Shown piece by piece: positions 485 to 32,027 of a stretch of 43,148 nucleotides of DNA. The notes under the pieces were generated by a model. It was not told the origin of the DNA, did no database searches, and was given only the letters and a program-made list of their open reading frames with translations. This stretch comes from a virus. The stretch spans positions 1 through 43,148 of the IMG/VR virus record IMGVR_UViG_3300034198_021447; one strand, 5' to 3'. Both the position numbers and the translations under genes were made by a program. Each line of letters begins with the position of its first letter. The stretch's first letter is position 1.

Positions 485-2689
485 TTAAATGTTTTTGAAT
501 CTTTCTAAGATTGATTTGAAATCTGAATCAGATAGTTTATCTTCTTGTATTAAACTGTCATGAGAAATCATTTTTTTAGTTGATTCATTCTTTTTTAAGT
601 TTCTAGTTAACCAAAAATGTTCAATTTTAGCTTCTGAATCCAATTCAGGATATAGTTTAGCTTGTGAAAGAATTGATTTTTTAGAACTTTCATTTGTTAC
701 TTCCCAAATTGATTTTATATTTTCTGGCATCAATCTGATTAGTCTTTCTTCTAATGATTCATTTTTAATAGAAAGTGCTTCTTGTATTAATTTTATAACT
801 TCTGAACTTGTGAAATAACTCTTTTCGTTTATGTAAAGTTTTACTTGTTCTTGCTCTTCGTTTGTTAAGCTATAATAGCTATCAACTTGAGACTTGTTTA
901 AAAATTTTAAGAAATGTAGATCGTTTGTTTCAGAAACTTTACGTTTTCTAGCTTCTTCGATTAATAAATCTATTTTTTTACTTAAATCTGAATCTGTATT
1001 TTTATTTTCTAAGTAGTCTTCGTCTGCTTTAGATACATCTGGTAAACCTTCTAATTTTACTTCTTTACCTAATAATTCATCTTTGAAATCTGCTTCATTT
1101 GGAACCGCAGTATCAACTTTTTGTTCTTCTGGTAATTCAACTTCTGTTAATTCAGTATAATCTAAAGAAACTGGAGTTGCTTCATCAGCTTCACCCGCTT
1201 TTTCAACACCATCTTCACCATGAAGTTCATCCTCACCACCTTCTAAATAGTTATCTGATTTATTATCAACATCATTTTCACCAAAACCATATTCTTCTAA
1301 AGTAGGAATAAGATTTGATTCATTACTTTCAAATAATTTAGTACCATTAACTTTTTCAGAAATTAAACCTGTATAAGATACAGCTTTATCTAAGTTTTCA
1401 GCAATGTATTGAGAATAAGAAATGTTATCATCAAGGTGTTCTGCTATATATTCAGAATATTTAATATTACCTTCTAAGTTTTCAGCGATATACTCAGAAT
1501 AAGCAATATTACCATCTAAGTTTTCAGCTAAATATTCAGCATAAGAAATATTTCTATCTAAGTTTTCAGCTAAGTATTCTGCATAAGAAATATTCTTATC
1601 AACATTCTCAGCAATATATTCAGAATAAGAAATGTTTTTGTCTAAGTTTTCAGCGATATATTCAGAGTAAGAAATGTTTCTATCTAAATTTTCAGCGATG
1701 TATTCAGAATAAGAAATGTTCTTATCTAAGTTTTCAGCAATATATTCTGCATAAGCGATATTTTTGTCTAAGTTTTCAGCAACATATTCAGAATATTTAA
1801 TTGATTTGTTTAAGTTTTCAACTAAATAATCGTTATGTTCGATTAATCTATCAGTTGTATCTTTAAGAGATTTGTTCTCAGAAACAACAACTTGAATTTT
1901 TTCTGCTAAATAATCTAAGTATTTAACAACTTGAGAATTAGTTTTATTTAATTCTTCATAGTAGTTTAAAAGTTTTTCTAATTTAACTGGTTCTAAATTA
2001 CCAGATTTAAGAGCACTTTTAACTTCTTTTTTAGTTGCAGCAATTTCATTAACTATATATTTCGAATAGTCTGACAATTGATCTTTCGTTACGAATTCAT
2101 TTTTGTTCATGTTAAATAATTCATTTATTTTTGATTCATTTGATACTTCATATATTCTGAAGTTAGCATCATTTGAATAATTTAAAGACTCATTTATAGA
2201 AGACATTCTCGCAGAAGCAAATCCCGGATCTGCAACTATATCATAAGTAAATAATTTTTTTAGTGATACTGTACCATCAGCTTCTGTAATACCAGCAGCT
2301 CTTGAAGATACAAATATAGGGCAACCATCATCAACTAAAGCCTTAGCTTCTTTTCCCCAATAGGTATTTAATAATTTAATTTGTCCTTCAACTACATTTT
2401 TTTCTTTAACATAATATGCGGTTTTGATTAAATGGGATGCACGGGATAGTGAAGTGTCAAAGACGTCGGGGTGGTCAAACTCACCATAAACTACTCCCAT
2501 AGTAGAAATCCTGCTATTAAGTTCTTCTAAACAAGGCAAGAATCTTTCAGGAGTATATACTCTTTCATTCCTATTTTTAACCATAAACTCAGTAAAAGTA
2601 CCTCCTAAAAGATAATCTTTTCTAGCATCTACACCTTCGTTCATTTTTAAAGGATTTGTATTATTTTCAATGATTAATACTGGCTTCAT
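485..2689 (-). CDS. Prohead protease fused to repeat-built scaffold (gp21-gp22-like)
   Basis: This 734-residue protein joins two functions that T4 encodes separately. Residues 1-160 are a prohead serine protease. Gly-Glu-Phe-Asp-His-Pro carries the likely catalytic His73, and the FVSSRAAG segment carries Ser128/Ser129. Their spacing and the TYDIVADPG strand after them fit the T4 gp21 (S77) family. The rest is a highly charged, helical scaffold. Residues 285-448 are about ten perfect 14-residue units of the type YSEYIAENLDKNIS plus degenerate flanks, which is four heptad-like turns expected to form a long coiled coil. Nearly every unit holds I/L-A-E, the family's cleavage consensus, and SINES at 164-168 could separate the two domains. 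The C-terminus is acidic and then Lys-rich. It sits just upstream of the capsid gene, as expected for a shell-assembly operon. Confidence 0.9.
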   Translation of the reverse strand: MKPVLIIENNTNPLKMNEGVDARKDYLLGGTFTEFMVKNRNERVYTPERFLPCLEELNSRISTMGVVYGEFDHPDVFDTSLSRASHLIKTAYYVKEKNVVEGQIKLLNTYWGKEAKALVDDGCPIFVSSRAAGITEADGTVSLKKLFTYDIVADPGFASARMSSINESLNYSNDANFRIYEVSNESKINELFNMNKNEFVTKDQLSDYSKYIVNEIAATKKEVKSALKSGNLEPVKLEKLLNYYEELNKTNSQVVKYLDYLAEKIQVVVSENKSLKDTTDRLIEHNDYLVENLNKSIKYSEYVAENLDKNIAYAEYIAENLDKNISYSEYIAENLDRNISYSEYIAENLDKNISYSEYIAENVDKNISYAEYLAENLDRNISYAEYLAENLDGNIAYSEYIAENLEGNIKYSEYIAEHLDDNISYSQYIAENLDKAVSYTGLISEKVNGTKLFESNESNLIPTLEEYGFGENDVDNKSDNYLEGGEDELHGEDGVEKAGEADEATPVSLDYTELTEVELPEEQKVDTAVPNEADFKDELLGKEVKLEGLPDVSKADEDYLENKNTDSDLSKKIDLLIEEARKRKVSETNDLHFLKFLNKSQVDSYYSLTNEEQEQVKLYINEKSYFTSSEVIKLIQEALSIKNESLEERLIRLMPENIKSIWEVTNESSKKSILSQAKLYPELDSEAKIEHFWLTRNLKKNESTKKMISHDSLIQEDKLSDSDFKSILERFKNI
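1346..1837 (-). repeat. 42-bp in-frame tandem repeat encoding scaffold coiled coil
   Basis: About ten clear and two degenerate copies of a 42-base unit lie inside the scaffold part of the protease-scaffold gene. Each copy encodes 14 residues (Y-S/A-E-Y-I/L-A-E-N-L-D-K/R-N-I-S/A). Copies differ mostly at third positions and at Ser/Ala or Ile/Leu, so the protein period is under selection and recent slippage alone is unlikely. Confidence 0.95.
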
Positions 2690-4388: not shown

Positions 4389-6122
4389 TTAAAATTCAAA
4401 CTCACCACCGCCAGCTTCACCACCAGCTTCAGGTGCAGGAGGATTTTCACCACCAGCTTCAGGTTCCGAAGCAGCTTCACCACCTTCAGGAGGAGTTTCA
4501 CCACCCGCTTCAGGAACAGGAGCTTCAGGAGAAGGTCCTGCTTCTCCACCACCGCCTCCACCTTCTGGCATTCCACCTCCAGCAGCAGTTGATGATCCAA
4601 CCCCTTTTGATTTAATCCAATAAGCCTTATTTTCTTCAATTTCTTCGGGAGTTAATTTCATAATTTTATCAACAAGGAAATCAACATGGAAATAAGGTTG
4701 TTCACCATTCATAATTCCTAATAAAGTAGTCATTATGGTAGCTCTAGATTCCATATTTGCTAATTTTTTCCATTCTTCAAAAATCTGATTTGTATTGAAA
4801 ATAACATCAACTTGGTTAAGAAATACTTCATCATGTCTTAATTCAGGAAATTCCATACACATTTGAAGTTTAATTGGTTTAACAATTAGTTCTTTAATAA
4901 TTGAACGTAAACGGCTAATAAAATTACCAAAGGTTATTTCATCTCTTGTCATTTCATTTGCAGCAGTCACTAACTGACCCCCACCATTTTCTTTTTCAAA
5001 TCTTTGGAAAGGTATCTTACTTGCTCTTTTCAAACAATTCATAAACCAATTTAACATATTATCTTCATTAAGATTATGTCCTTGTGGAGAAATCAATTCC
5101 ATATTTGGTGTACCTTGATCACCTTCTGGAAACCATATTTGTTTATTATATGGTAAGTGTTTACTACCACTAATAGTTAATGTACCTAATGAATCATCAA
5201 ATTCTACATCTTCAGAATAATCAGCTATTAATTGTGCAATTTGTTCCTCAGCTCTTTGTTTTGGTAAACCTTTAATAGGTATTGTAAACTTTTGATAAAC
5301 CATCGCATTAACTACGTTAAACATAATTCTTGTTTGTTCCATAATCTTTAATTGATTATATGGTTTAATAAGTCCTTCTACATAAGAAGTTTCGGAATAA
5401 TCATGTTGAGTAGAATATGATATAAATACTATTTGCGAATCTAAGAAAATTCTTCTTAAAGCAGGATCTTCTGGATATTGTATCCAAATATTTCCTATAC
5501 TTGGTTCATAAGCTGGAACAAGAGTTTCAGGTCTCATTCTATTAAAACTAATAATATTCTTTTTTGTATCATCCCATATAATTTCAACTGCGGCATAACC
5601 ATCAATTAAAAAATCTTTAGTCATATTCCAAGCAGTAATACCATCAGAAAAACCAAAACGACTGTATATTTTTTCAAAAAATTCTTGATATTTATCTCGT
5701 ATATCTTGTGAATAACTATTATTTAAAGGACTTGGAGAACAGAAATCTTTATCTTCATCATACACAATAATTTCATCGGCTAACACAGATACAAATTCAC
5801 GTATTTCATCCTTAATAGAATATTCTCTTAATATTCTTCTTTTATCTGAATACGCTTTATCTAAATAAGGAATTGATTTTTTGTTTAAAACTTGAGCGAC
5901 TGCTCTTTGAGAAAAGAAAGCATACATAGAATCCGCTCTTTGAGCAAGAGGGTCTTCATTCATACCGACACCGATAGAATTTCTAAGTATCATATCTTCA
6001 TATTTTAGACCTAACCCTGAAAGGGATCTAAGAAGACGATTAAATATACCTTTATTTTCAACAGCAGAAGGTATAATATTTGGGTTTGTATTGCTATTTA
6101 TTGGATTATATGATCCTGGCAT
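4389..6122 (-). CDS. Portal protein, gp20-like
   Basis: This 577-residue protein forms the dodecameric head vertex through which DNA enters and to which the neck attaches. The N-terminal half has the T4-family pattern: KRRILREYSIKDEIREF, then LADEIIVYDEDKDF, then GYAAVEIIWDD and PETLVPAYEPS. The central region, with PFQRFEKENGGGQ and an NEMTRDEITFGNFI helix, matches the family's crown and stem region. Residues from about 515 to the end are an unusual Gly/Pro/Glu-rich low-complexity tail, encoded by DNA visibly richer in G+C than its surroundings. T4 gp20 (524 residues) lacks such a tail. The long open frames over this tail on both strands are shadows. The gene has a long-spaced promoter-like element and its own terminator. 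Confidence 0.9.
   Translation of the reverse strand: MPGSYNPINSNTNPNIIPSAVENKGIFNRLLRSLSGLGLKYEDMILRNSIGVGMNEDPLAQRADSMYAFFSQRAVAQVLNKKSIPYLDKAYSDKRRILREYSIKDEIREFVSVLADEIIVYDEDKDFCSPSPLNNSYSQDIRDKYQEFFEKIYSRFGFSDGITAWNMTKDFLIDGYAAVEIIWDDTKKNIISFNRMRPETLVPAYEPSIGNIWIQYPEDPALRRIFLDSQIVFISYSTQHDYSETSYVEGLIKPYNQLKIMEQTRIMFNVVNAMVYQKFTIPIKGLPKQRAEEQIAQLIADYSEDVEFDDSLGTLTISGSKHLPYNKQIWFPEGDQGTPNMELISPQGHNLNEDNMLNWFMNCLKRASKIPFQRFEKENGGGQLVTAANEMTRDEITFGNFISRLRSIIKELIVKPIKLQMCMEFPELRHDEVFLNQVDVIFNTNQIFEEWKKLANMESRATIMTTLLGIMNGEQPYFHVDFLVDKIMKLTPEEIEENKAYWIKSKGVGSSTAAGGGMPEGGGGGGEAGPSPEAPVPEAGGETPPEGGEAASEPEAGGENPPAPEAGGEAGGGEFEF
4395..4562 (-). repeat. Imperfect Gly/Pro/Glu repeats encoding portal C-terminal tail
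   Basis: In-frame imperfect repeats of the type P-E-A-G-G-E make up the last 55 or so residues of the portal. The G+C content is locally higher than in flanking DNA, which suggests expansion by slippage. Confidence 0.75.
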
Positions 6123-6158: not shown

Positions 6159-6710
6159 TTATGCCTTTTCTAGTATTTCAGAAAAGTAGGGCTGTGTGAA
6201 GTTTAATAATTTATTTTTATTACCGTCATAAGATGATATTAAAAAATCAAATAACTCTTGACTTTTTATTAAATATTTATTACTTAATTTATTTAATTCT
6301 TTTTTTCTTAATAAATTATCTATGCGGTCACAAATTTTAATTTCTATAATATCATTTTTTGTTTTAGTATCTATATCTTTAAATCTTTCTTTTAGAATAT
6401 CTAAAGATTTATTTTTTGATAAATTTACATCATTATCATAATATGTCAAAAACTCAACTAATTTAATCGAATATGAACTAATCATATTTTTTAGTACATA
6501 AATAGATCCACCTCTTTCTAAAAAGTCATGATATAAGGCCGCATTATGTACATCTTGAGAAACAGTTAATAACTTAATTAAGTTAGCAACTCTTTTTGAG
6601 TGTTTAACTTTTTGTAAAGGCATACTCTTTTTAAGAGTTTTTATGTCTGTTTTAGTTGCTTCAAAAATAAATTCTTTGAATTTCATTGTATAAATATTTT
6701 TATTTTCCAT
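6159..6710 (-). CDS. HD-domain phosphohydrolase with capsid-targeting-like N-terminus
   Basis: This 183-residue protein has the metal ligands of the HD superfamily in order: His37 (KHSKRVA), His61-Asp62 (ALYHDFLE) and Asp128 (KICDRIDN). The spacing and the final K-I-C-D-R-I-D-N-L motif resemble the (p)ppGpp hydrolase branch (SpoT and MESH1: HD-x-x-ED, then K-L-A-D-R-L-x-N). Alarmone hydrolysis is therefore the best guess, but an Arg stands where the second acidic residue of HDxxED usually is. Residues 9-18 (MKFKEFIFEA) resemble the T4 internal-protein targeting peptide, with I-F-E/A as a protease site. A start at the second ATG (codon at 6684-6686) would put this at the extreme N-terminus; the longer frame overlaps the upstream gene by 11 bases. 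Packaging into the virion is inferred. Confidence 0.72.
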   Translation of the reverse strand: MENKNIYTMKFKEFIFEATKTDIKTLKKSMPLQKVKHSKRVANLIKLLTVSQDVHNAALYHDFLERGGSIYVLKNMISSYSIKLVEFLTYYDNDVNLSKNKSLDILKERFKDIDTKTKNDIIEIKICDRIDNLLRKKELNKLSNKYLIKSQELFDFLISSYDGNKNKLLNFTQPYFSEILEKA

Positions 6711-7392
6711 ACTTGCTATAACTTTTTTGTATTCTATTAATATGGTCTTTTAACTCTGTAAAATTTTTATCAATATCTGATGATATATCAAACATATCTT
6801 TAACTAATAATTTAGATAATTCAGCATGTCTTTTATCTCGTGTTTCTAATTTAATTTTCCAAATTTCATATAATTTTTTTGGATCATATTTATTTATTGG
6901 ATGTCCTGAATATAAAAATCTAGGAATTAAATTCATATTAATTTCATGAACTAAAACTATTTGAGCCATATTATATTCTACAATAGCCCATTCATATCCA
7001 TATTTTGATAATTCATTATAACATCCTTCATAATCAACGTTCAATCCTATATTATTATCAAAGTTTTTATCTATAAAAAATTTATCAAAAATAGATACTC
7101 TTATTCCAATTGGAATAAAATTAAAATTAACCCCATATATAATAATCAAGTTATCAAACTTTTTAAAATCAATAATAAATACAGGAGAATATTTAATCCA
7201 ATTAGAATCATCTTTATAATGAAGATGATAAAAATATCCTAACTTCATGTTACCAGGACTTATATTTAAAACATTTTTATCTGAATTTTTGTATTTTTCA
7301 TAAAAAAATAAAGAATTTTGTTTAAAAACATCGGGTATATCTTTTCCATATACTAAATTAGATAATTTAACTCTTTCCAACAACTCTGACAT
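6700..7392 (-). CDS. Possible gp2-like DNA end protector
   Basis: This is a 230-residue protein without a signal peptide or membrane segment. The core runs PGNMKLGYFYHLHYKDD, then YSPVFIIDF, then GVNFNFIPIGIR, and later IPRFLYSGHP and YEIWK. It resembles the T4-type family usually annotated as DNA end protector, in which a G-x-M/L-Y-x-F-x-Y-D-x-K segment is followed by Y-x-x-P-L-V-F and G-x-N-L-H-Y-L-P-x-x-x-R. In T4, gene 2 lies near gene 4, and here a gp4 homologue starts 31 bases away, divergently, which supports the call. The similarity is weak and recalled from memory, so this is a hypothesis. The gene shares a palindromic promoter-like element with the gp4-like gene. Confidence 0.42.
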   Translation of the reverse strand: MSELLERVKLSNLVYGKDIPDVFKQNSLFFYEKYKNSDKNVLNISPGNMKLGYFYHLHYKDDSNWIKYSPVFIIDFKKFDNLIIIYGVNFNFIPIGIRVSIFDKFFIDKNFDNNIGLNVDYEGCYNELSKYGYEWAIVEYNMAQIVLVHEINMNLIPRFLYSGHPINKYDPKKLYEIWKIKLETRDKRHAELSKLLVKDMFDISSDIDKNFTELKDHINRIQKSYSKYGK

Positions 7393-7423: not shown

Positions 7424-7930
7424 ATGCTTAATTCAAAACCAAATAATAGTAATTATCATCAAGGTTTATATATTCCAAAAAACAAAGATAAAGTTTTAAA
7501 ATTAAATAATCAAGGTGGATTATATTATCGTTCAGGGTTAGAAAAAAAAGCTATGATATTTTTTGATTATAGTGAAAGAGTTATTAGATGGTCTGCTGAA
7601 AATTTTAAAGTAGAATATGTTAAAACTGATTGGGATAATGGTACACAAGGTTTAATTAGTTCTAAACATAGTTACTACCCAGATTTTTATTATGAAATGA
7701 AAAAACCTGATGGTAGTATTGCAAAAATTATAGCAGAAGTTAAACCACATAGTGAAACTGTAGCACCAATCTTAAAAGAAAATGCTACAGTTAAACAACT
7801 TAAAAATTTTGAATATTCCCTAAAAATGTGGAATAAAAATTTAAGTAAGTGGAAATACATGATTGAGTTTTGTGAGAAAAAAGGTTTTGAATTTATTATA
7901 ATAACTGATAAATTCTTATCTAAACTATAA
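7424..7930 (+). CDS. Head completion nuclease, gp4-like
   Basis: This 168-residue protein matches the T4 gp4 (head completion) family. QGLYIPKNKDKV is followed by the YRSGLEKKAM helix with Glu40, then VIRWSAENFKVEY, then YYPDFYYEM with Asp87 and KIIAEVKPHSE with Glu105 and Lys107. These form a PD-(D/E)xK nuclease core (E-x(n)-D-x(n)-E-x-K). In T4 this protein acts after DNA packaging, at the head-tail junction. The C-terminal helices with a KWKYMIEFCEKKGFEF segment also fit the family. It is transcribed alone on the plus strand from the shared palindromic element and overlaps the convergent unknown gene by 11 bases. Confidence 0.85.
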   Translation: MLNSKPNNSNYHQGLYIPKNKDKVLKLNNQGGLYYRSGLEKKAMIFFDYSERVIRWSAENFKVEYVKTDWDNGTQGLISSKHSYYPDFYYEMKKPDGSIAKIIAEVKPHSETVAPILKENATVKQLKNFEYSLKMWNKNLSKWKYMIEFCEKKGFEFIIITDKFLSKL

Positions 7931-8251: not shown

Positions 8252-9940
8252 TTATAATAAAAAAATCCACTTTTTATTGCCACCATTATATACTCTATAA
8301 TATCCTAATTCTAGCATAATTTCTTCTTCAGTTTTATTTATATCATAACCCATTTTGACTAACTTAGATTTTCTCCAATTAAATCTATGTTCTCTTTTTT
8401 TATCAATTACATACCAATATCCAGGTTTAGATGTATGTAAATAAGTAAAACCTAATTTTTCATACATATTTCCATTAGAAATTAAATTATCTGAATAAGT
8501 TTCTATTCTAATTGGAATCCATTTATCAATAAAATATTTTAATAATTTGGAAGCTCCACCAATTATATTAGTGTTTATTATATTACAATACCGTGTTAAC
8601 TCATAAACATGTTCTTGATTTTTTCCACCTAAAGGAAGTCTTAATTTAGAAAATGTCATTAAATTAACTAATTCATTATTATAATATAACCCAATTCTTA
8701 TTGATGATTTACAATCACCTTGAAAATGATTCCTATCTAAAAAATTTTTAGAAGTTGTATAATCAACTTCTTTAATTACACATTTACGTGCTCCTATTTT
8801 ATATGTTAAGTTTAATTTATTTAGAATATATGATTTACAGATTTCTTTTTTAATAACCCAATCATCTTCCCATATAGTAAATAAATTAATATTATTTTTT
8901 TCTGCTAATTGTTTTTTTATTAAATGATATTCTTCTTTTTTAAATTTCTCACTATGCCAATATAGCCCATTAAATTCAAACCCTAATTTTAATTCTGGTA
9001 AATAAATGTCAATTTCATACGGATTAATATAATCTTTAGTATTTACTATAATTTCTCCATTATAATTTTCTTTAATAAAATTATAAATATCAATTTGTTT
9101 AATACTTGAACTTTCTGATATAGGAAAGCAATTAGTACATATACTAGTATTATTAGTGACTCTATAATAAAATTGATAAGTTAATATCTCAAAATTAGTA
9201 TTACATTTTTTACAAAAAAATTTTAAATATGTAGTTATATTTTTATTAAAACCATTAAATTCATAATCATTTTGATTAATTTTATCCATTATTCTTTTTT
9301 TATAATCAGAATAAAAAACATCAATTGATTTATCATGTATTTCTTTTATCATCCAATGATGTTCAACTCCATATTTTTCAATGGATGTTTTTTTAAAATT
9401 TTCTTTAAAATCACTTATTTTAAAACTTTCTATTCTTTTTTTATTTAATTCTTCTGATTTATTGGGGTTATCTACACCCCAATTTTTTAATAAAGTTTGT
9501 TTAGATTTTTCTTGAGTTTTTTCTAAACACATAGCAGAATTAACCCCATATTTTTCTAAATTTGTTTTTATAATTTTTTGTTTTATTTCTAATGATTCAG
9601 CAGGGGTTTTAGTTCCATATTTAACAATAGATTTTTCTTGTTTAGATTTTTTTATATTTTCATCTGAACTTATACATTTATTAGAGCAATAAGTTAAATA
9701 TCCTATTGTTGAGTTTTTATACTTTACTTTATTACTACAATTATTATTTTTACATTTAGGAACTTCTTTTAAATTATTGACAGAGATAAAAACTTTTTCT
9801 TTAAAAGGTAAATCTCCTAATTCATTATTTATACAATAATCAATAATATATTCATATTCCTTTGGATATGTTTTTAACAAAGATTTTTCTTTACACATAC
9901 TTCCAGAAGGATCACTTTTTTTAAAAATTTCTAAATCCAT
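8252..9940 (-). CDS. Free-standing homing endonuclease (Hef/Vsr-like)
   Basis: This 562-residue mobile endonuclease has a layered architecture. The N-terminal third has Cys-rich knuckles (KCKNNNCSNK, YCSNKC) and repeated helical motifs of the form K-Y-G-V/T-x-x-P/A-x-x-S that read DNA. The middle has a second Cys pair set (CKKCNTNF, CTNC). Around residues 308-330, IDIYLPELKLGFEFNGLYW is the Vsr/PD-(D/E)xK-type catalytic core, with Asp in DIY and Glu in FEFNG. The C-terminal part (VDYTTSKNFLDRNHFQG to YEKLGFTY) resembles an acetyltransferase-like fold often attached to these phage enzymes. It sits alone between the head and tail genes, behind the sheath terminator and with its own promoter-like element, as expected for a selfish gene placed outside essential coding sequence. 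Confidence 0.82.
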   Translation of the reverse strand: MDLEIFKKSDPSGSMCKEKSLLKTYPKEYEYIIDYCINNELGDLPFKEKVFISVNNLKEVPKCKNNNCSNKVKYKNSTIGYLTYCSNKCISSDENIKKSKQEKSIVKYGTKTPAESLEIKQKIIKTNLEKYGVNSAMCLEKTQEKSKQTLLKNWGVDNPNKSEELNKKRIESFKISDFKENFKKTSIEKYGVEHHWMIKEIHDKSIDVFYSDYKKRIMDKINQNDYEFNGFNKNITTYLKFFCKKCNTNFEILTYQFYYRVTNNTSICTNCFPISESSSIKQIDIYNFIKENYNGEIIVNTKDYINPYEIDIYLPELKLGFEFNGLYWHSEKFKKEEYHLIKKQLAEKNNINLFTIWEDDWVIKKEICKSYILNKLNLTYKIGARKCVIKEVDYTTSKNFLDRNHFQGDCKSSIRIGLYYNNELVNLMTFSKLRLPLGGKNQEHVYELTRYCNIINTNIIGGASKLLKYFIDKWIPIRIETYSDNLISNGNMYEKLGFTYLHTSKPGYWYVIDKKREHRFNWRKSKLVKMGYDINKTEEEIMLELGYYRVYNGGNKKWIFLL

Positions 9941-14428: not shown

Positions 14429-14956
14429 CTATTTTGTAGATTTCATATTACTAATTTTTTTGTTTAGTAAAGTTAATTTATTTTTTATTTCCGTATCTAT
14501 TTTAGTAATTTCCGTTTTTAGTAGGTTAATTTCATTTAATTTATCTGAGATTTTTTTATTTAATTCTGTTATTTCTTCATTTGTACTTTCTTGTAAGTTA
14601 GGATTTTTTTTAATTAAATCTTGTTTTTGGATTATATTATTTTTATAACCTTCTATAGTATCATTTATATTTTGTATTTCTTTTTTCTTACCTGCAATTT
14701 TTGCCCATATTTCTAGTAGTTCATTGGTAAAAGCCATTTTATTATCTTTACCTCTAATAACTAATTTAGCATTAAATAATTTATTTTCTAAATCTTTTTC
14801 ATTAATATTAGTTTGGTAAATTTTATCTAAAATAGTTTTTTTGGATTTATATTCCATTACTTGTTTTTCTAAATTTTCCAAACTTTCTAAATTCTCTAAG
14901 TTTTGTACTTCTACTTCTTCTTTAATAAAAGAAGAAAATTTTTTATATATTTTCAT
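14429..14956 (-). CDS. Coiled-coil protein with capsid-targeting-like N-terminus
   Basis: This 175-residue protein is almost entirely Lys/Glu/Asn-rich helix with heptad spacing of Ile and Leu, so it is expected to be a long coiled coil. The N-terminus, MKIYKKFSSFIKEE, closely resembles the T4 internal-protein targeting peptide (MKTYQEFIAEA), with I-K-E as a possible prohead-protease site. A run of Leu-Glu-x repeats follows at residues 18-33. It is the last gene of a three-gene minus-strand operon whose other two members also start with a similar motif; its start is one base from the stop of the preceding gene. An internal head protein or scaffold accessory is plausible. No enzyme motif is seen. 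Confidence 0.6.
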   Translation of the reverse strand: MKIYKKFSSFIKEEVEVQNLENLESLENLEKQVMEYKSKKTILDKIYQTNINEKDLENKLFNAKLVIRGKDNKMAFTNELLEIWAKIAGKKKEIQNINDTIEGYKNNIIQKQDLIKKNPNLQESTNEEITELNKKISDKLNEINLLKTEITKIDTEIKNKLTLLNKKISNMKSTK

Positions 14957-14957
14957 A

Positions 14958-16694
14958 TTAAATTATTGTGCCTTTTTTATAAGATAAAACAGCGTCTGTT
15001 AATTTACTTTTAACTTTATCTGTTAATAACTTATGATATTTATTATAAGTATTATCATCACAAGAAAATTGAGAACCAGCAGCACCTTCTGTTAAAAAAG
15101 AATAATTTTTTATTTCTGTATCACCAAAAGAAATTTTTGTATCAATATTATCTTTAATTGTAGGATAACCACCACTTTTATCTTTTGTTACATCTATATA
15201 ATCAAAAGTTGTATTATTACCACCTTTAACATCCATTAAATACCATTCACAATTATCAATTTTAATAGGACTATTAGATGTATTTAGTGAATCTAAAAGT
15301 CCTATTCCTTCATGATCATTTTCTATATTAGGATATTTAGCATCTCTTAATTTAAATCCTTTATGATTTAAATTTATCCAATCTCTAATTATTTTATCAT
15401 TATTTTTCCAATAATAAAAATATATTCCTTTAAACTCTTCCTTTTTATTATTAGCTTTAAATTCAAAAAAACATTTTTCCAAAGCTATACATATAAAAGC
15501 TAATTGATTACTTGTAGCAGCCGCAAAAAACTTTTTATTTATTTTATCATAATCTGGTCTACCTGAAACTTGCCAATAAAAAGTTTTTGGTTCTATATCT
15601 CTTTTATTTTTCTTAATAAGTGTCCCATTATAAGTTACTTTATCAACTGAATCCCCTTTAATTCCAAAATAATCAAACATTAGTTTATTTTTATTACTAT
15701 CAAAATCTGATAATTTATTTTTATCAAGCATATTCCTCATAAAAGTAAATATTATTTGACCTTGTTTATCATTACCACTTGGTGTAGCAGTTGCTTCTTC
15801 AGCTTCATTAATAAATTTAATACTTTCTAATTTAGTTTGTTTATTTGGTTCTTCTACAACTGTAGTATTTTTTACTTTAAATTTAGAATTAGCAAATATT
15901 TTTCTCATTTCTTTATCTTGAAATATTTTCTCAATACCATCTCTCCATTTATTAAATATAGAATTTGCTATAAAAGGTCCATTTGGTGCTCTTTCTTCAG
16001 TCCACTGACCTCCACCTGGTTCTTTTCCTACATAAGTATATTCTAAATAAGTTTTTTGAGATACTTTACCTAAAGGTCTTCCTGTTGGAATTTGAGGAGT
16101 AAAATATAATTGATGTGCTTGTTGAAATAAATCAACTATTTTAATAATAGGATCTTTATCTGTATCATCTGGAGTATAAGACCATGATTCTACATCTTGT
16201 GAACCTATATATTCCATTTTTTTATAATCTTCATCCGTCATTTCCCATTTTTGTCTTTCTTCTTGTTTAAAGATTGTTCCAAACAAACCATCTATAGTTA
16301 GAGGAGTTGATGCACTAGCGCCTTGAGTAGGCGCTGTTACTGATGCACTTCCTCCTTGAGTTTGAGATGTATTTGATGCACTTCCTCCTTGAGTTTGAGA
16401 GGTATTTGATGCACTACCACTTTGTGGTTGATTTTGTATAGAAGAATTATTATTTGAAGCACTTGCTCCTTTATTATCATTGTTATTTAAACCTTTATAT
16501 ATAGTATCTAATTTATTAATCCAATAATTAGAGTCTTGTTTTTTTGTGTTATCAGCAGAAACAAACTCATCTAATAGTGATTTTAATTCTGTATTATTTT
16601 TATCAGATTTTGAAGCTTTTGCTAATTTATCATAAATAAAATCAGAATTAAGTTCTTCTTTTAATAAAGTTGGATGTTTTTTTATATATCTCAT
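14958..16694 (-). CDS. Unknown structural-type protein with Ser/Ala/Gly repeats and targeting-like N-terminus
   Basis: This 578-residue protein is not recognised. It begins MRYIKKHPTLLKEEL, a candidate capsid-targeting peptide with L-K-E as a cleavage site. A helical segment is followed by a low-complexity linker at about residues 85-130 with 11-residue repeats (S-Q-T-Q-G-G-S-A-S-N-T). The remaining 440 residues look globular, with aromatic motifs such as EWYLMDVKGGNNTTFDYID and ISFGDTEIKNYSFLTEGAAGSQF. No catalytic motif was found. The linker suggests a tether between a processed N-terminal tag and a folded C-terminal domain. It is the middle gene of the operon that starts at 17551. A virion internal protein is the working guess. 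Confidence 0.6.
   Translation of the reverse strand: MRYIKKHPTLLKEELNSDFIYDKLAKASKSDKNNTELKSLLDEFVSADNTKKQDSNYWINKLDTIYKGLNNNDNKGASASNNNSSIQNQPQSGSASNTSQTQGGSASNTSQTQGGSASVTAPTQGASASTPLTIDGLFGTIFKQEERQKWEMTDEDYKKMEYIGSQDVESWSYTPDDTDKDPIIKIVDLFQQAHQLYFTPQIPTGRPLGKVSQKTYLEYTYVGKEPGGGQWTEERAPNGPFIANSIFNKWRDGIEKIFQDKEMRKIFANSKFKVKNTTVVEEPNKQTKLESIKFINEAEEATATPSGNDKQGQIIFTFMRNMLDKNKLSDFDSNKNKLMFDYFGIKGDSVDKVTYNGTLIKKNKRDIEPKTFYWQVSGRPDYDKINKKFFAAATSNQLAFICIALEKCFFEFKANNKKEEFKGIYFYYWKNNDKIIRDWINLNHKGFKLRDAKYPNIENDHEGIGLLDSLNTSNSPIKIDNCEWYLMDVKGGNNTTFDYIDVTKDKSGGYPTIKDNIDTKISFGDTEIKNYSFLTEGAAGSQFSCDDNTYNKYHKLLTDKVKSKLTDAVLSYKKGTII
16309..16440 (-). repeat. 33-bp tandem repeat encoding Gly/Ser/Ala linker
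   Basis: Four adjacent 33-base units lie within the 578-residue gene. The two central ones differ at a single base; the outer ones are diverged. They encode the 11-residue S-Q-T-Q-G-G-S-A-S-N-T unit. Confidence 0.85.
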
Positions 16695-23564: not shown

Positions 23565-23849
23565 TTAGATATTTTCTTCCATTGTCACACTAAGACCTTT
23601 TGACTTTAATTGTTCATACATCTTAGTTACTATTTCTTTAGTACCTCTTTTTACATCACATTTACCTCTAAAATGTACTATATGAGCACACTGAGATGCT
23701 TGTTCGTAAGAATGCTTACAAACTTTCATTAAACACTCTATTACGTGTTCAAAACTATTATAGTCGTCATTGTGAAGTAAAAGGGTAAAAGGTTGACTTA
23801 AGATCTCATCTACTTTTGTTTCACTTTTTGTTTCTGTAATTGTTGCCAT
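23565..23849 (-). CDS. clpS: ClpS-like N-degron adaptor
   Basis: This 94-residue protein covers the whole ClpS core. LLLHNDDYNSFEHVIECLMK contains the substrate-binding Asn27-Asp28-Asp29. The helix KHSYEQASQCAHIVHFRGK contains His59, equivalent to the His of E. coli ClpS that contacts the substrate N-terminus. The C-terminal strand is GLSVTMEE. ClpS delivers proteins with destabilising N-terminal residues to ClpAP or a ClpC-type protease. A phage copy could redirect host proteolysis, or compete with the host adaptor. It has no capsid-targeting motif, so it would act after synthesis in the infected cell. It lies 4 bases downstream of the HAD phosphatase gene and is probably cotranscribed with it. 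Confidence 0.9.
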   Translation of the reverse strand: MATITETKSETKVDEILSQPFTLLLHNDDYNSFEHVIECLMKVCKHSYEQASQCAHIVHFRGKCDVKRGTKEIVTKMYEQLKSKGLSVTMEENI

Positions 23850-25121: not shown

Positions 25122-25628
25122 ATGAAATACATAAAACAATATGAAAATCATGTAAAATTAAAAAAGGCACAAGAAGTTCCTGTTAAAGAAGTAAAAACTT
25201 TACAAGTGATTAATGAAAGTGTTGAAATAATTGATGATATATATGAAGTTAGAACAACTACTGAGATCCCTCAATCTCTTATTAATGGTTTTATTAAAAA
25301 AGCAGAAACTAATTTAGACATTAAAGTTCGTAAAACTTACAGTGATAAAGACCTTGCTGAGATGTTAGTTAATAAAGTTATTAAAATGAATTTAGATATT
25401 GAGAAGTTAAACCCAAGTGATTTCTTTGGAGGAGGACAATCTTCTTCACAAGAAGGACAATCTCAAGAAACTCCAACAGAAGCTCCAACTGAGACACCTC
25501 AAGAAGATTCAGCAGAAGCTCCTCAATCTCAACCACAAGCACAAGCACAATCAGCTCCTACAGAAGGATATGAAAGTACAGAAGAAAATTTACCAGAAGA
25601 ACAAACTCAAACTCAAGAACAAGTTTAA
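25122..25628 (+). CDS. Small protein with targeting-like N-terminus and Gln/Glu/Pro-rich tail
   Basis: This 168-residue protein starts MKYIKQYENHVKLKK, one of the window's shared N-terminal motifs. It has V-I-N-E/S near residue 30, matching the prohead-protease consensus and very similar to the T4 targeting peptides' I-N/A-E. A short folded region with a helix follows (SDKDLAEMLVNKVIKMNLDIEKL), and then a low-complexity Ser/Gln/Glu/Pro/Ala tail from residue 105 on. No enzyme motif is seen. An internal head protein or small core component is likely. It ends in a strong terminator. The A/T-rich leader (repeated AATTAAA) carries only a distant version of the recurrent promoter element. Confidence 0.6.
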   Translation: MKYIKQYENHVKLKKAQEVPVKEVKTLQVINESVEIIDDIYEVRTTTEIPQSLINGFIKKAETNLDIKVRKTYSDKDLAEMLVNKVIKMNLDIEKLNPSDFFGGGQSSSQEGQSQETPTEAPTETPQEDSAEAPQSQPQAQAQSAPTEGYESTEENLPEEQTQTQEQV

Positions 25629-25688: not shown

Positions 25689-26297
25689 ATGAAATATTTA
25701 AAAATATTTGAAGAATTTGAGGATAAAGTATTAGTTATTGTAGATGTTCAAAAATCTTTTAAGAAATACTTTAATGATATTTATTTAGAAGAATTAAAAA
25801 AATATTGTGCGGAATTTACAGAAGTTTATCAAATATACGATAATCATATTTTTGATAAACCAGGAACAGATTTTATGTTTTCTGATAATCCTATAAAACC
25901 TATTTTTGATGAATTATATAATTTTAATGAAGTTGATATAATAGAAAAACGTTATCATAATGAACACCATTTAGTTTATTACAAATCTTATTTAACTAAT
26001 GAAGTTTATAGAACTATTGTTGAAAGACAAAAAAATAATTTGTTAAAAGTTGGTGATATGTTTGATACTAAACACGGAACTAAAATAATTTTTGTAAACC
26101 ATAAACATATGTGGTTTCATTTAACTAAAAAAATGATAAATTTCTTTAATAAATTAAAAGGAAGAAAAATTATTTTAGTAGGTGGTGCTATAGACCATTG
26201 TTTAAAAGATATAGAAGTTTCTATGGAAACATTTGTATTAGATATAACTATACAACACAAATTTATTTATAGTGGTACTTACTGTTATTTTAGTTAA
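25689..26297 (+). CDS. Isochorismatase-like cysteine hydrolase with targeting-like N-terminus
   Basis: This 202-residue protein matches the isochorismatase/nicotinamidase superfamily. VLVIVDVQKSF carries the catalytic Asp19, EKRYHNEH carries a Lys87 candidate, and the late strand-helix GRKIILVGGAIDHCLKDIEVSMETF carries the nucleophile Cys171. A triad of Asp, Lys and Cys hydrolyses amides such as nicotinamide or related metabolites; the exact substrate cannot be read from the sequence. The N-terminus MKYLKIFEEFED is one of the capsid-targeting-like peptides and directly precedes the first core strand, so the tag seems to have been added to an otherwise complete enzyme. It has its own short-spaced promoter-like element. 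Confidence 0.72.
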   Translation: MKYLKIFEEFEDKVLVIVDVQKSFKKYFNDIYLEELKKYCAEFTEVYQIYDNHIFDKPGTDFMFSDNPIKPIFDELYNFNEVDIIEKRYHNEHHLVYYKSYLTNEVYRTIVERQKNNLLKVGDMFDTKHGTKIIFVNHKHMWFHLTKKMINFFNKLKGRKIILVGGAIDHCLKDIEVSMETFVLDITIQHKFIYSGTYCYFS

Positions 26298-31726: not shown

Positions 31727-31756
31727 AAAAAAAAGTAGGCAATGCCTACTTTTTTG
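31727..31756. terminator. Bidirectional terminator between late sigma and a small gene
   Basis: AAAAAAGTAGGC / GCCTACTTTTTT with a 3-base loop. It follows the sigma stop codon and lies at the end of the convergent small gene on the minus strand. Confidence 0.85.
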
Positions 31757-32027
31757 CTTTATGTAATAACATTTCTAAATTATCTTTAGTAAAATCTTTA
31801 AAATCTTCTTTACCACCATCTTTTAAATAAGCATTATATAACTCTTGATATTCATATAATGTATAATATTTTCCTGTAGTTTCGGAAAATAAAACTCCTG
31901 TATCTTTAGCATCTATTCCTATATCTAATACTTGATTACCATATGCCGGTCCTATACTTCCTGCACCAACAGGTATTTCTGCTCCACTAATGGATTCTAC
32001 AAACTTGTTAAATTTTTTAATTATCAT
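31746..32027 (-). CDS. Small protein with capsid-targeting-like N-terminus
   Basis: This 93-residue protein begins MIIKKFNKFVESISGAEI. Its K-K-F-x-x-F-V/I-x-S/E pattern is the clearest of the shared targeting motifs after the HD and coiled-coil proteins. The cleavage position is less obvious (V-E/S at 10-12, or after GAE). A Gly-rich turn region (PVGAGSIGPAYGNQVLD) precedes a globular C-terminus with YYTLYEYQELYNAYLK. The function is unknown. Its start overlaps the end of the upstream unknown gene by 11 bases, so the two are an operon. Confidence 0.6.
   Translation of the reverse strand: MIIKKFNKFVESISGAEIPVGAGSIGPAYGNQVLDIGIDAKDTGVLFSETTGKYYTLYEYQELYNAYLKDGGKEDFKDFTKDNLEMLLHKAKK

Follow-up and report, generated by a model that had tools for sequence, protein, structure and literature searches.

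A candidate capsid-targeted protein with a predicted alarmone-hydrolase-like HD fold and an Asp-to-Arg change at its active site in a probable huge-phage fragment

We found that a small gene in the head cluster of an uncultured phage encodes a protein, here called HD-ER, that combines a T4-like N-terminal capsid-targeting motif with a predicted HD fold closest to that of the alarmone hydrolases, and in which Arg replaces the second acid of the HDxxED signature. The explanation to which we give the most weight, nearly an even prospect, is that HD-ER would be packaged and injected, and that its alarmone-hydrolase fold would be reprogrammed to act on a nucleotide of stress or defence. If this is true, a hydrolase tagged for injection and altered at a catalytic position throughout its lineage would represent a distinct anti-signal strategy operating before phage gene expression. 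The window, i.e., the whole stretch of 43,148 nucleotides that was analysed (IMG/VR record IMGVR_UViG_3300034198_021447), is low in GC (0.20–0.31 along the stretch), was found to hold no tRNA genes, and encodes a head maturation protease, portal, head closure protein, tail sheath, terminase large subunit, and clamp loader. The portal shares 73% identity with its counterpart in LR756502.1 (642 kb) and 72% with that in LR745206.1 (635 kb), followed by uncultured phages of 636 kb (53.6%) and 735 kb (48.5%). A survey of huge phages describes complete genomes of 634, 636, 642, and 735 kb; its largest genomes fall in the Mahaphage clade, and for those above 634 kb the predicted hosts are Bacteroidetes (PMC7162821). 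Because of the portal identities to 635–642-kb phages and this survey, the window most likely represents part of a huge, Mahaphage-like phage genome, and a Bacteroidota host may be presumed.

The true start of HD-ER is probably the second ATG (6686-6684), because the residues preceding it are unconserved in a 42% relative and, in an 81% relative (L006), are one fewer with one changed; the residue numbers used here follow the ORF minus its first Met. Seven IMG/VR loci contain near copies (98–100%): five of these are complete, and those of L007 and L008 are truncated where the contig ends; one of the complete copies, L001, is 100% identical and probably the same phage as the window, and L009 is a 3' fragment. 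The 42% relative lies on another phage contig (L021:725-1264), and a protein of an uncultured marine phage, A0A8D9CCC1, retrieved by Foldseek among predicted viral structures (38% identity over 172 columns, E = 4.9e-8), is likely one more member of the family. Further scans of viral contigs gave no additional member among the matches listed. In tblastn searches of 50,697 phage records, HD-ER gave one weak, more ordinary HD_4-like match (E = 0.2), and the 42% relative gave one weak match (E = 0.4) to a different HD protein, which we take to be YfbR-like; NCBIfam and PADLOC gave no match for HD-ER. As to a cellular origin, a profile search of 296 Bacteroidota genomes returned no match at E = 0.001, a weak result because the search had no positive control. 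The pattern YHD[FY]xERGG occurred in six stretches of genome contigs, of which four encode the peptide and two do not, and none of the four peptides is in an HD context by eye. Against L006, the dN/dS is about 0.2 by NG86 (0.104/0.482), with 0.099/0.771 by YN00, and the ORF is under purifying selection. A reading-frame artefact was rejected on the dN/dS and the conservation.

Table 1. Positions in the window of the HD-ER gene, its motifs, and the neighbouring head genes.
Feature	Position	Strand	Remarks
Head maturation protease fused to tandem 14-residue repeats	485..2689	-	phrog_207, E = 4.8e-29
42-bp tandem array coding the repeats YSEYIAENLDKNIS	1385..1795	-	Motif as in the putative HD-ER cargo tag
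Portal protein	4389..6122	-	phrog_213; 73% identical to the LR756502.1 portal
HD-ER protein ORF	6159..6710	-	183 aa from the first ATG
Probable true HD-ER CDS	6159-6686	-	175 aa, starts MKFKEFIFEA
KICDRIDN	6315..6338	-	K124, D127, N131; HD motif 6
HDFLERGG	6507..6530	-	H60-D61, E64, R65 in place of Asp
KKSMPLQKVKH	6600..6632	-	Replaces the RKxxGxPYxxH loop (HD motif 1); contains H36
MKFKEFIFE/A, capsid-targeting-like peptide with gp21-type cleavage site IFE|A	6657..6686	-	T4 IpII/IpIII match; N-terminal enrichment
230-aa head-cluster protein, upstream flank of the variable slot	6700..7392	-	Flanks the HD-ER gene
Head closure protein	7424..7930	+	phrog_218

The initial annotation had pointed to an N-terminal targeting-peptide match (I-F-E/A), and this observation has gained in strength. 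IFE/A corresponds to residues 14–17 of HD-ER. In the T4 record, IpII and IpIII both start with MKTYQEFIAEA (cut as MKTYQEFIAE/A) and IpI starts with MKTFKEF; aligned to T4, the HD-ER tag is one residue shorter and carries F, F, I, and E in the same order. According to PMC9026906, ten N-terminal residues suffice for the packaging of IPIII, with residues 4 and 7 mattering for targeting and residues 8 and 10 for processing. We counted the motif [FY]x[EQDNKS][FY][ILVM]xE, a pattern written after these N-termini had been seen, in 358 mechanically called ORFs of at least 60 aa from an 82.8-kb contig with the window's genes and a 21.6-kb contig (both whole), 150 of the 642 kb of LR756502, and 50 of the 636 kb of LR756504. 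With four protease/scaffold proteins (11–13 motif copies each) set aside, the remaining 354 ORFs gave 12 motif starts in positions 1–13, against a mean of 0.51 and a maximum of 3 in 500 shuffles, none in the next 52 positions (four 13-position bins), and eight in all beyond position 13. Two of the 12 N-terminal hits are the HD proteins of the window phage and L021, and one is a 95-aa protein with scaffold-like repeats of its own; the 50 kb sampled from LR756504 have no motif at any N-terminus. The motif is absent from all 40 ordinary phage alarmone hydrolases tested. The 42% relative reads INE|Y, with Tyr and not a small residue following the tag Glu. The mature part of HD-ER is basic, with a pI of 9.45 and 25 Lys. 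HD-ER possesses a T4-type N-terminal targeting peptide with an (I/L)xE site; the T4 likeness of this putative tag is statistically strong, and HD-ER is probably packaged in the virion.

Motifs of the same kind recur in the head maturation protease of the window, on which the T4 gp21 family PF03420 scores 17.8 bits (cut-off 27). This protein carries the tag motif 11 times, the last ten copies being exactly 14 residues apart (YSEYIAENLDKNIS), and nine of these ten evenly spaced copies carry [IL]xE. The protease/scaffold proteins of the L021 contig, LR756502, LR756504, and the 735-kb LR756501 contain 13, 11, 11, and 14 copies, respectively, i.e., each of the four near relatives examined shares with the window phage scaffold repeats that carry the tag motif. 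The more distant LR756500 (462 kb) has two copies, and around the protease of Lak-A2, no ORF of at least 120 aa in the stretch examined contains the motif. In the case of T4, gp22 has 16 [IL]xE sites and no tag motif, in contrast to the likely scaffold of the window phage with its tandem repeats. We suggest that the repeats would form a scaffold helix that is shredded by the protease at [IL]xE, and that the cargo tags would be mimics of a single repeat. The match between repeat and tag suggests, in a form open to test, how a capsid targeting sequence of ten residues might be recognised: it would be a single copy of the scaffold repeat. If true, this would also allow the injected proteins of some of the largest phages known to be predicted from sequence by a simple rule. 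Among the top-ranked titles and abstracts of the open-access literature, we found no report of scaffold repeats matching a capsid targeting sequence. On the 82.8-kb contig, outside the window, a 95-aa protein (L138:4647-4934) contains the same type of 14-residue repeat and is a possible small scaffold protein.

The HD-ER gene is situated inside the head cluster, between the genes of the 230-aa protein and the portal. In LR756502.1, the counterparts of these two flanking genes (52% and 73% identity, respectively) enclose two other genes (L145:31232-32480). The first encodes 256 aa, starts with MKYLSKYNMFIEQ, and contains EHEFAH, which by eye may be a zinc-protease motif; the second encodes 157 aa and starts with MKHLRKFEE. 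The N-termini of both proteins are loosely tag-like and fall outside the counted pattern, and Pfam gave no match over the cut-off for them or for the other tagged proteins. The slot is empty in LR756504 and in the L021 phage, whose HD gene sits elsewhere. A homing endonuclease gene adjoins the head cluster (window 8252-9940(-), phrog_3339, E = 1e-115). The gene position inside the head cluster, together with the tag statistics and the T4 match, bears against the reading of HD-ER as an ordinary, unpackaged phage HD hydrolase that works inside the cell late in infection and whose N-terminal motif is incidental. That reading draws on the abundance of untagged phage alarmone-type hydrolases (49 loci), on the lack of the tag motif anywhere in the 40 ordinary ones tested (0/40), and on the proposal of jumbo-phage enzymes as counter-defence (PMC7824862), and we regard it as decidedly unlikely.

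A SpoT/MESH1-like branch had been claimed for the protein, with structure prediction named as the check that could overturn the claim, and both the profiles and two models place HD-ER closest to this branch. On the single protein, Pfam HD scores 18.5 bits (cut-off 22) and HD_4 scores 14.4 bits (cut-off 27.2), both below the cut-off, and a search of the PDB sequences gave no match. With the core profile, the best match among the PDB sequences was Thermus Rel, at a non-significant E of 0.26. Comparison by hhalign of the core profile with a profile of 40 phage alarmone hydrolases (built from 40 of the 49 hydrolase loci after near-duplicates and short pieces were dropped) gave 97.5% and E = 2.7e-11, the E-value referring to one pairwise comparison with no hhalign control. 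The core profile scored a median of 8.7 bits on the 49 viral hydrolase loci (37 of them at 5 bits or more), 5.5 bits on 45 Bacteroidota HD_4 loci (25 at 5 or more), and 0.7 bits on 30 Bacteroidota general HD loci (2 at 5 or more); the HD_4 loci score above the general HD loci (p = 2e-7). By eye, these general HD controls look like HD-GYP, RNase Y, and PgpH proteins, so that they may contain no YfbR- or YpgQ-type members.

The first model was built from four rows (the others 98, 98, and 81% identical to the first) with no hydrolase rows and reached a pLDDT of 60. Foldseek placed small alarmone hydrolases at ranks 1–3 (E = 0.13–1.3), with PaSAH and TdAct on top, and VIA placed RelH first (Z = 6.9, 5.0 Å, 146 aligned), with unrelated helical chains close behind (Z up to 6.1). 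The second model, with a pLDDT of 79, was built from 36 rows that include hydrolase homologues and is not independent of those rows. Here, VIA gave RelH (Z = 14.4, 2.8 Å, 153 aligned), MESH1 (13.7), and SpoT (12.1), and the top 21 entries, counting lmo0812, all belong to the SAH/Rel branch (Z = 14.4 to 10.1), followed by YpgQ (9.8), DatZ (8.8), and YfbR (7.9); the other HD folds share their score range with some Rel/RelA entries (Z = 10.2 to 7.7), and helical models can reach a Z near 14 from arrangement alone. The Foldseek E-values against the PDB were above 0.001 for both models. In a tree of 41 rows, the core forms one clade (100/100) on a branch of 3.6, and its placement is not settled. 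That long branch and unsettled placement, the Pfam HD score exceeding that of HD_4, an HD1 loop and an ED position unlike those of alarmone hydrolases, and the possible lack of YfbR- or YpgQ-type proteins in the controls all speak for another HD branch, i.e., a nucleotidase or cyclic-oligonucleotide phosphodiesterase that converged on KxCDxxxN. The profile and fold comparisons nevertheless favour the SAH/Rel branch, and we consider such convergence very improbable. HD-ER very probably adopts an SAH-branch fold, and structure prediction places it nearest to the SAH/Rel branch and not to another HD branch; the SpoT/MESH1/small-alarmone-hydrolase branch is the closest by sequence profiles and models.

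The motif order H, HD, K-I-C-D-R-I-D-N given in the initial annotation is found at H36, H60-D61, and K124–N131, within the full arrangement H36, H60-D61, E64, R65, K124-I-C-D127-R-I-D-N131 (H...HDxxE...KxCDxxxN). Presumably, H36 is the first metal ligand, H60, D61, and D127 are further metal ligands, and E64 is of the catalytic type. The metal ligands H, HD, and D occur in order in the five core rows and in a 36-row alignment, and the H, HD, E, D, and N of HD-ER are retained within the core down to 42% identity (five rows), which argues for a working metal site. The 36-row alignment comprises the five core rows and 31 phage alarmone-hydrolase homologues, with near-duplicates and short pieces left out. 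Its only invariant columns are H36, H60, D61, E64, K124, D127, and N131, and at H60, D61, and E64 the invariance partly reflects how the homologues were chosen, since a pattern containing HDxxED had retrieved most of them. HD6, KxxDxxxN, is present, with K124, D127, and N131 invariant. The HD1 loop RxxxGxPYxxH is absent, with KKxxPxxK instead. HDFLERGG is kept in all five distinct full-length core sequences, down to 42% identity; as had been claimed, the second acid of HDxxED is absent, with Arg in all five and E64 kept, and the R65 codon is AGA in all four core sequences whose codons were read. Across these sequences, the Asp-to-Arg switch is lineage-fixed. The ED pair was observed in all 45 Bacteroidota HD_4 loci examined (from 76 matches in 61 genomes). 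Its presence in 40 of 40 tested phage hydrolases is not evidence, because the patterns used to retrieve the 49 viral loci, HD[VS][YV]EDT or DMI, included it.

We take Asp66 of human MESH1 to be the second acid of its HDxxED pair and, by alignment logic, equate it with R65 of HD-ER. The MESH1 D66K protein is reported to be catalytically inactive and was crystallised with NADPH (PMC9894426), and PDB entry 9chy is, by its title, a MESH1 D66K–PAPS complex. The inactive hydrolase domain of RelA is reported to be without HDxxED (PMC8801413, PMC8012599). Because D66K at the equated position is reported inactive, ordinary ppGpp hydrolysis by HD-ER is doubtful, and HD-ER could be a dead enzyme. The (p)ppGpp hydrolysis suggested in the initial annotation is unsupported as stated in view of this variant and the rewritten HD1 loop, and the doubt about the substrate that it had attached to the Arg was well placed. 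A plain ppGpp hydrolase identity was rejected, since the ED pair and the HD1 loop are both lacking. HD-ER is not classed as an alarmone hydrolase because the ED Asp and the HD1 loop are lost and MESH1 D66K is inactive; it is predicted to work like, or to derive from, an alarmone hydrolase. A packaged pseudo-enzyme that binds an alarmone-type nucleotide tightly without cutting it, acting as an injected sponge, would accord with the loss of this acid in 5/5 distinct core sequences, with the binding of NADPH by the inactive D66K in the crystal, and with the PAPS complex. We consider this unlikely, given that HD-ER retains E64, K124, and N131 together with the four presumed metal ligands, which is more than binding should need, and that the copy number in the capsid may be too low.

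For the preferred reading, a packaged and reprogrammed enzyme, we infer the packaging, cleavage, injection, substrate, and purpose as follows. HD-ER would be virion cargo whose MKFKEFIFE/A copies one repeat unit of the phage's protease/scaffold protein, and by virtue of this copy it would co-assemble into the prohead core. The head protease would cut HD-ER after IFE, and the cut protein, now a basic enzyme of 166 residues, would remain inside the filled capsid and pass into the host cell together with the DNA. Its body would be an alarmone-hydrolase-type HD fold with the metal ligands and the catalytic Glu kept and the nucleotide-binding loop rewritten, and its target, attacked by altered chemistry, would most likely be a purine nucleotide or RNA end that carries a 3'-(pyro)phosphate and is produced by stress or defence enzymes of the host; an alarmone, ppApp, and pyrophosphorylated tRNA are candidates. 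That HD-ER acts on an alarmone-like 3'-phosphorylated target is possible, somewhat short of an even chance. ToxSAS systems that pyrophosphorylate tRNA have been implicated in anti-phage immunity (PMC11559606). More broadly, we tentatively propose, with a good deal of doubt, that Mahaphage-like giant phages possess a tag-by-mimicry cargo system, in which proteins whose N-terminus copies one 14-residue repeat of the self-cleaving protease/scaffold protein would be packed and injected; HD-ER would be one such cargo, an alarmone-hydrolase fold with an Asp-to-Arg change that attacks or traps a defence nucleotide beyond the reach of standard hydrolases.

Comparisons with known systems reveal both likenesses and differences. 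HD-ER shares with the alarmone hydrolases (SAH/HD_4) the predicted fold, the H...HDxxE...KxxDxxxN metal site, and a length of about 175 aa, but it has ER for ED, KKxxPxxK for RxxxGxPY, and a Pfam HD_4 score below the cut-off. Like T4 IpI–IpIII, it is a small basic protein of a phage with a head maturation protease, and it carries the MK..(F/Y)..FIxE/A tag of IpII and IpIII; unlike the T4 internal proteins, its body is an HD enzyme fold, its packaging is only predicted, and its gene lies within the head cluster, whereas the ip genes of T4 lie away from it. Phage-encoded enzymes of the same branch include the HD alarmone phosphodiesterases of jumbo phages, proposed earlier to act on alarmones as counter-defence (PMC7824862), and the SAH annotated in Pakpunavirus Adele, likewise proposed to act on alarmones (PMC12846349); in the available extracts of these two sources, neither a capsid tag nor an ER substitution is mentioned for them. 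We found no report of an injected or capsid-tagged alarmone hydrolase among the top-ranked titles and abstracts of the open-access literature.

Other N-termini resembling the tag were also observed. In the window, the protein at 14429-14956(-), starting with MKIYKKFSSFIKEE, fits the tag motif and is a possible further cargo, and looser look-alikes are MKYLKIFEE at 25689-26297(+), MKYIKQYEN at 25122-25628(+), MIIKKFNKF at 31746-32027(-), and MRYIKKHPT at 14958-16694(-). In the phage with the 42% relative, an ART-PolyVal ADP-ribosyltransferase (L142:4067-4645, Pfam 1.1e-9) starts with MKYLKTFEE and recalls the injected Alt protein of T4. A small protein of the window at 23565-23849(-) matches phrog_27368, annotated as an ATP-dependent protease (E = 4.8e-8).
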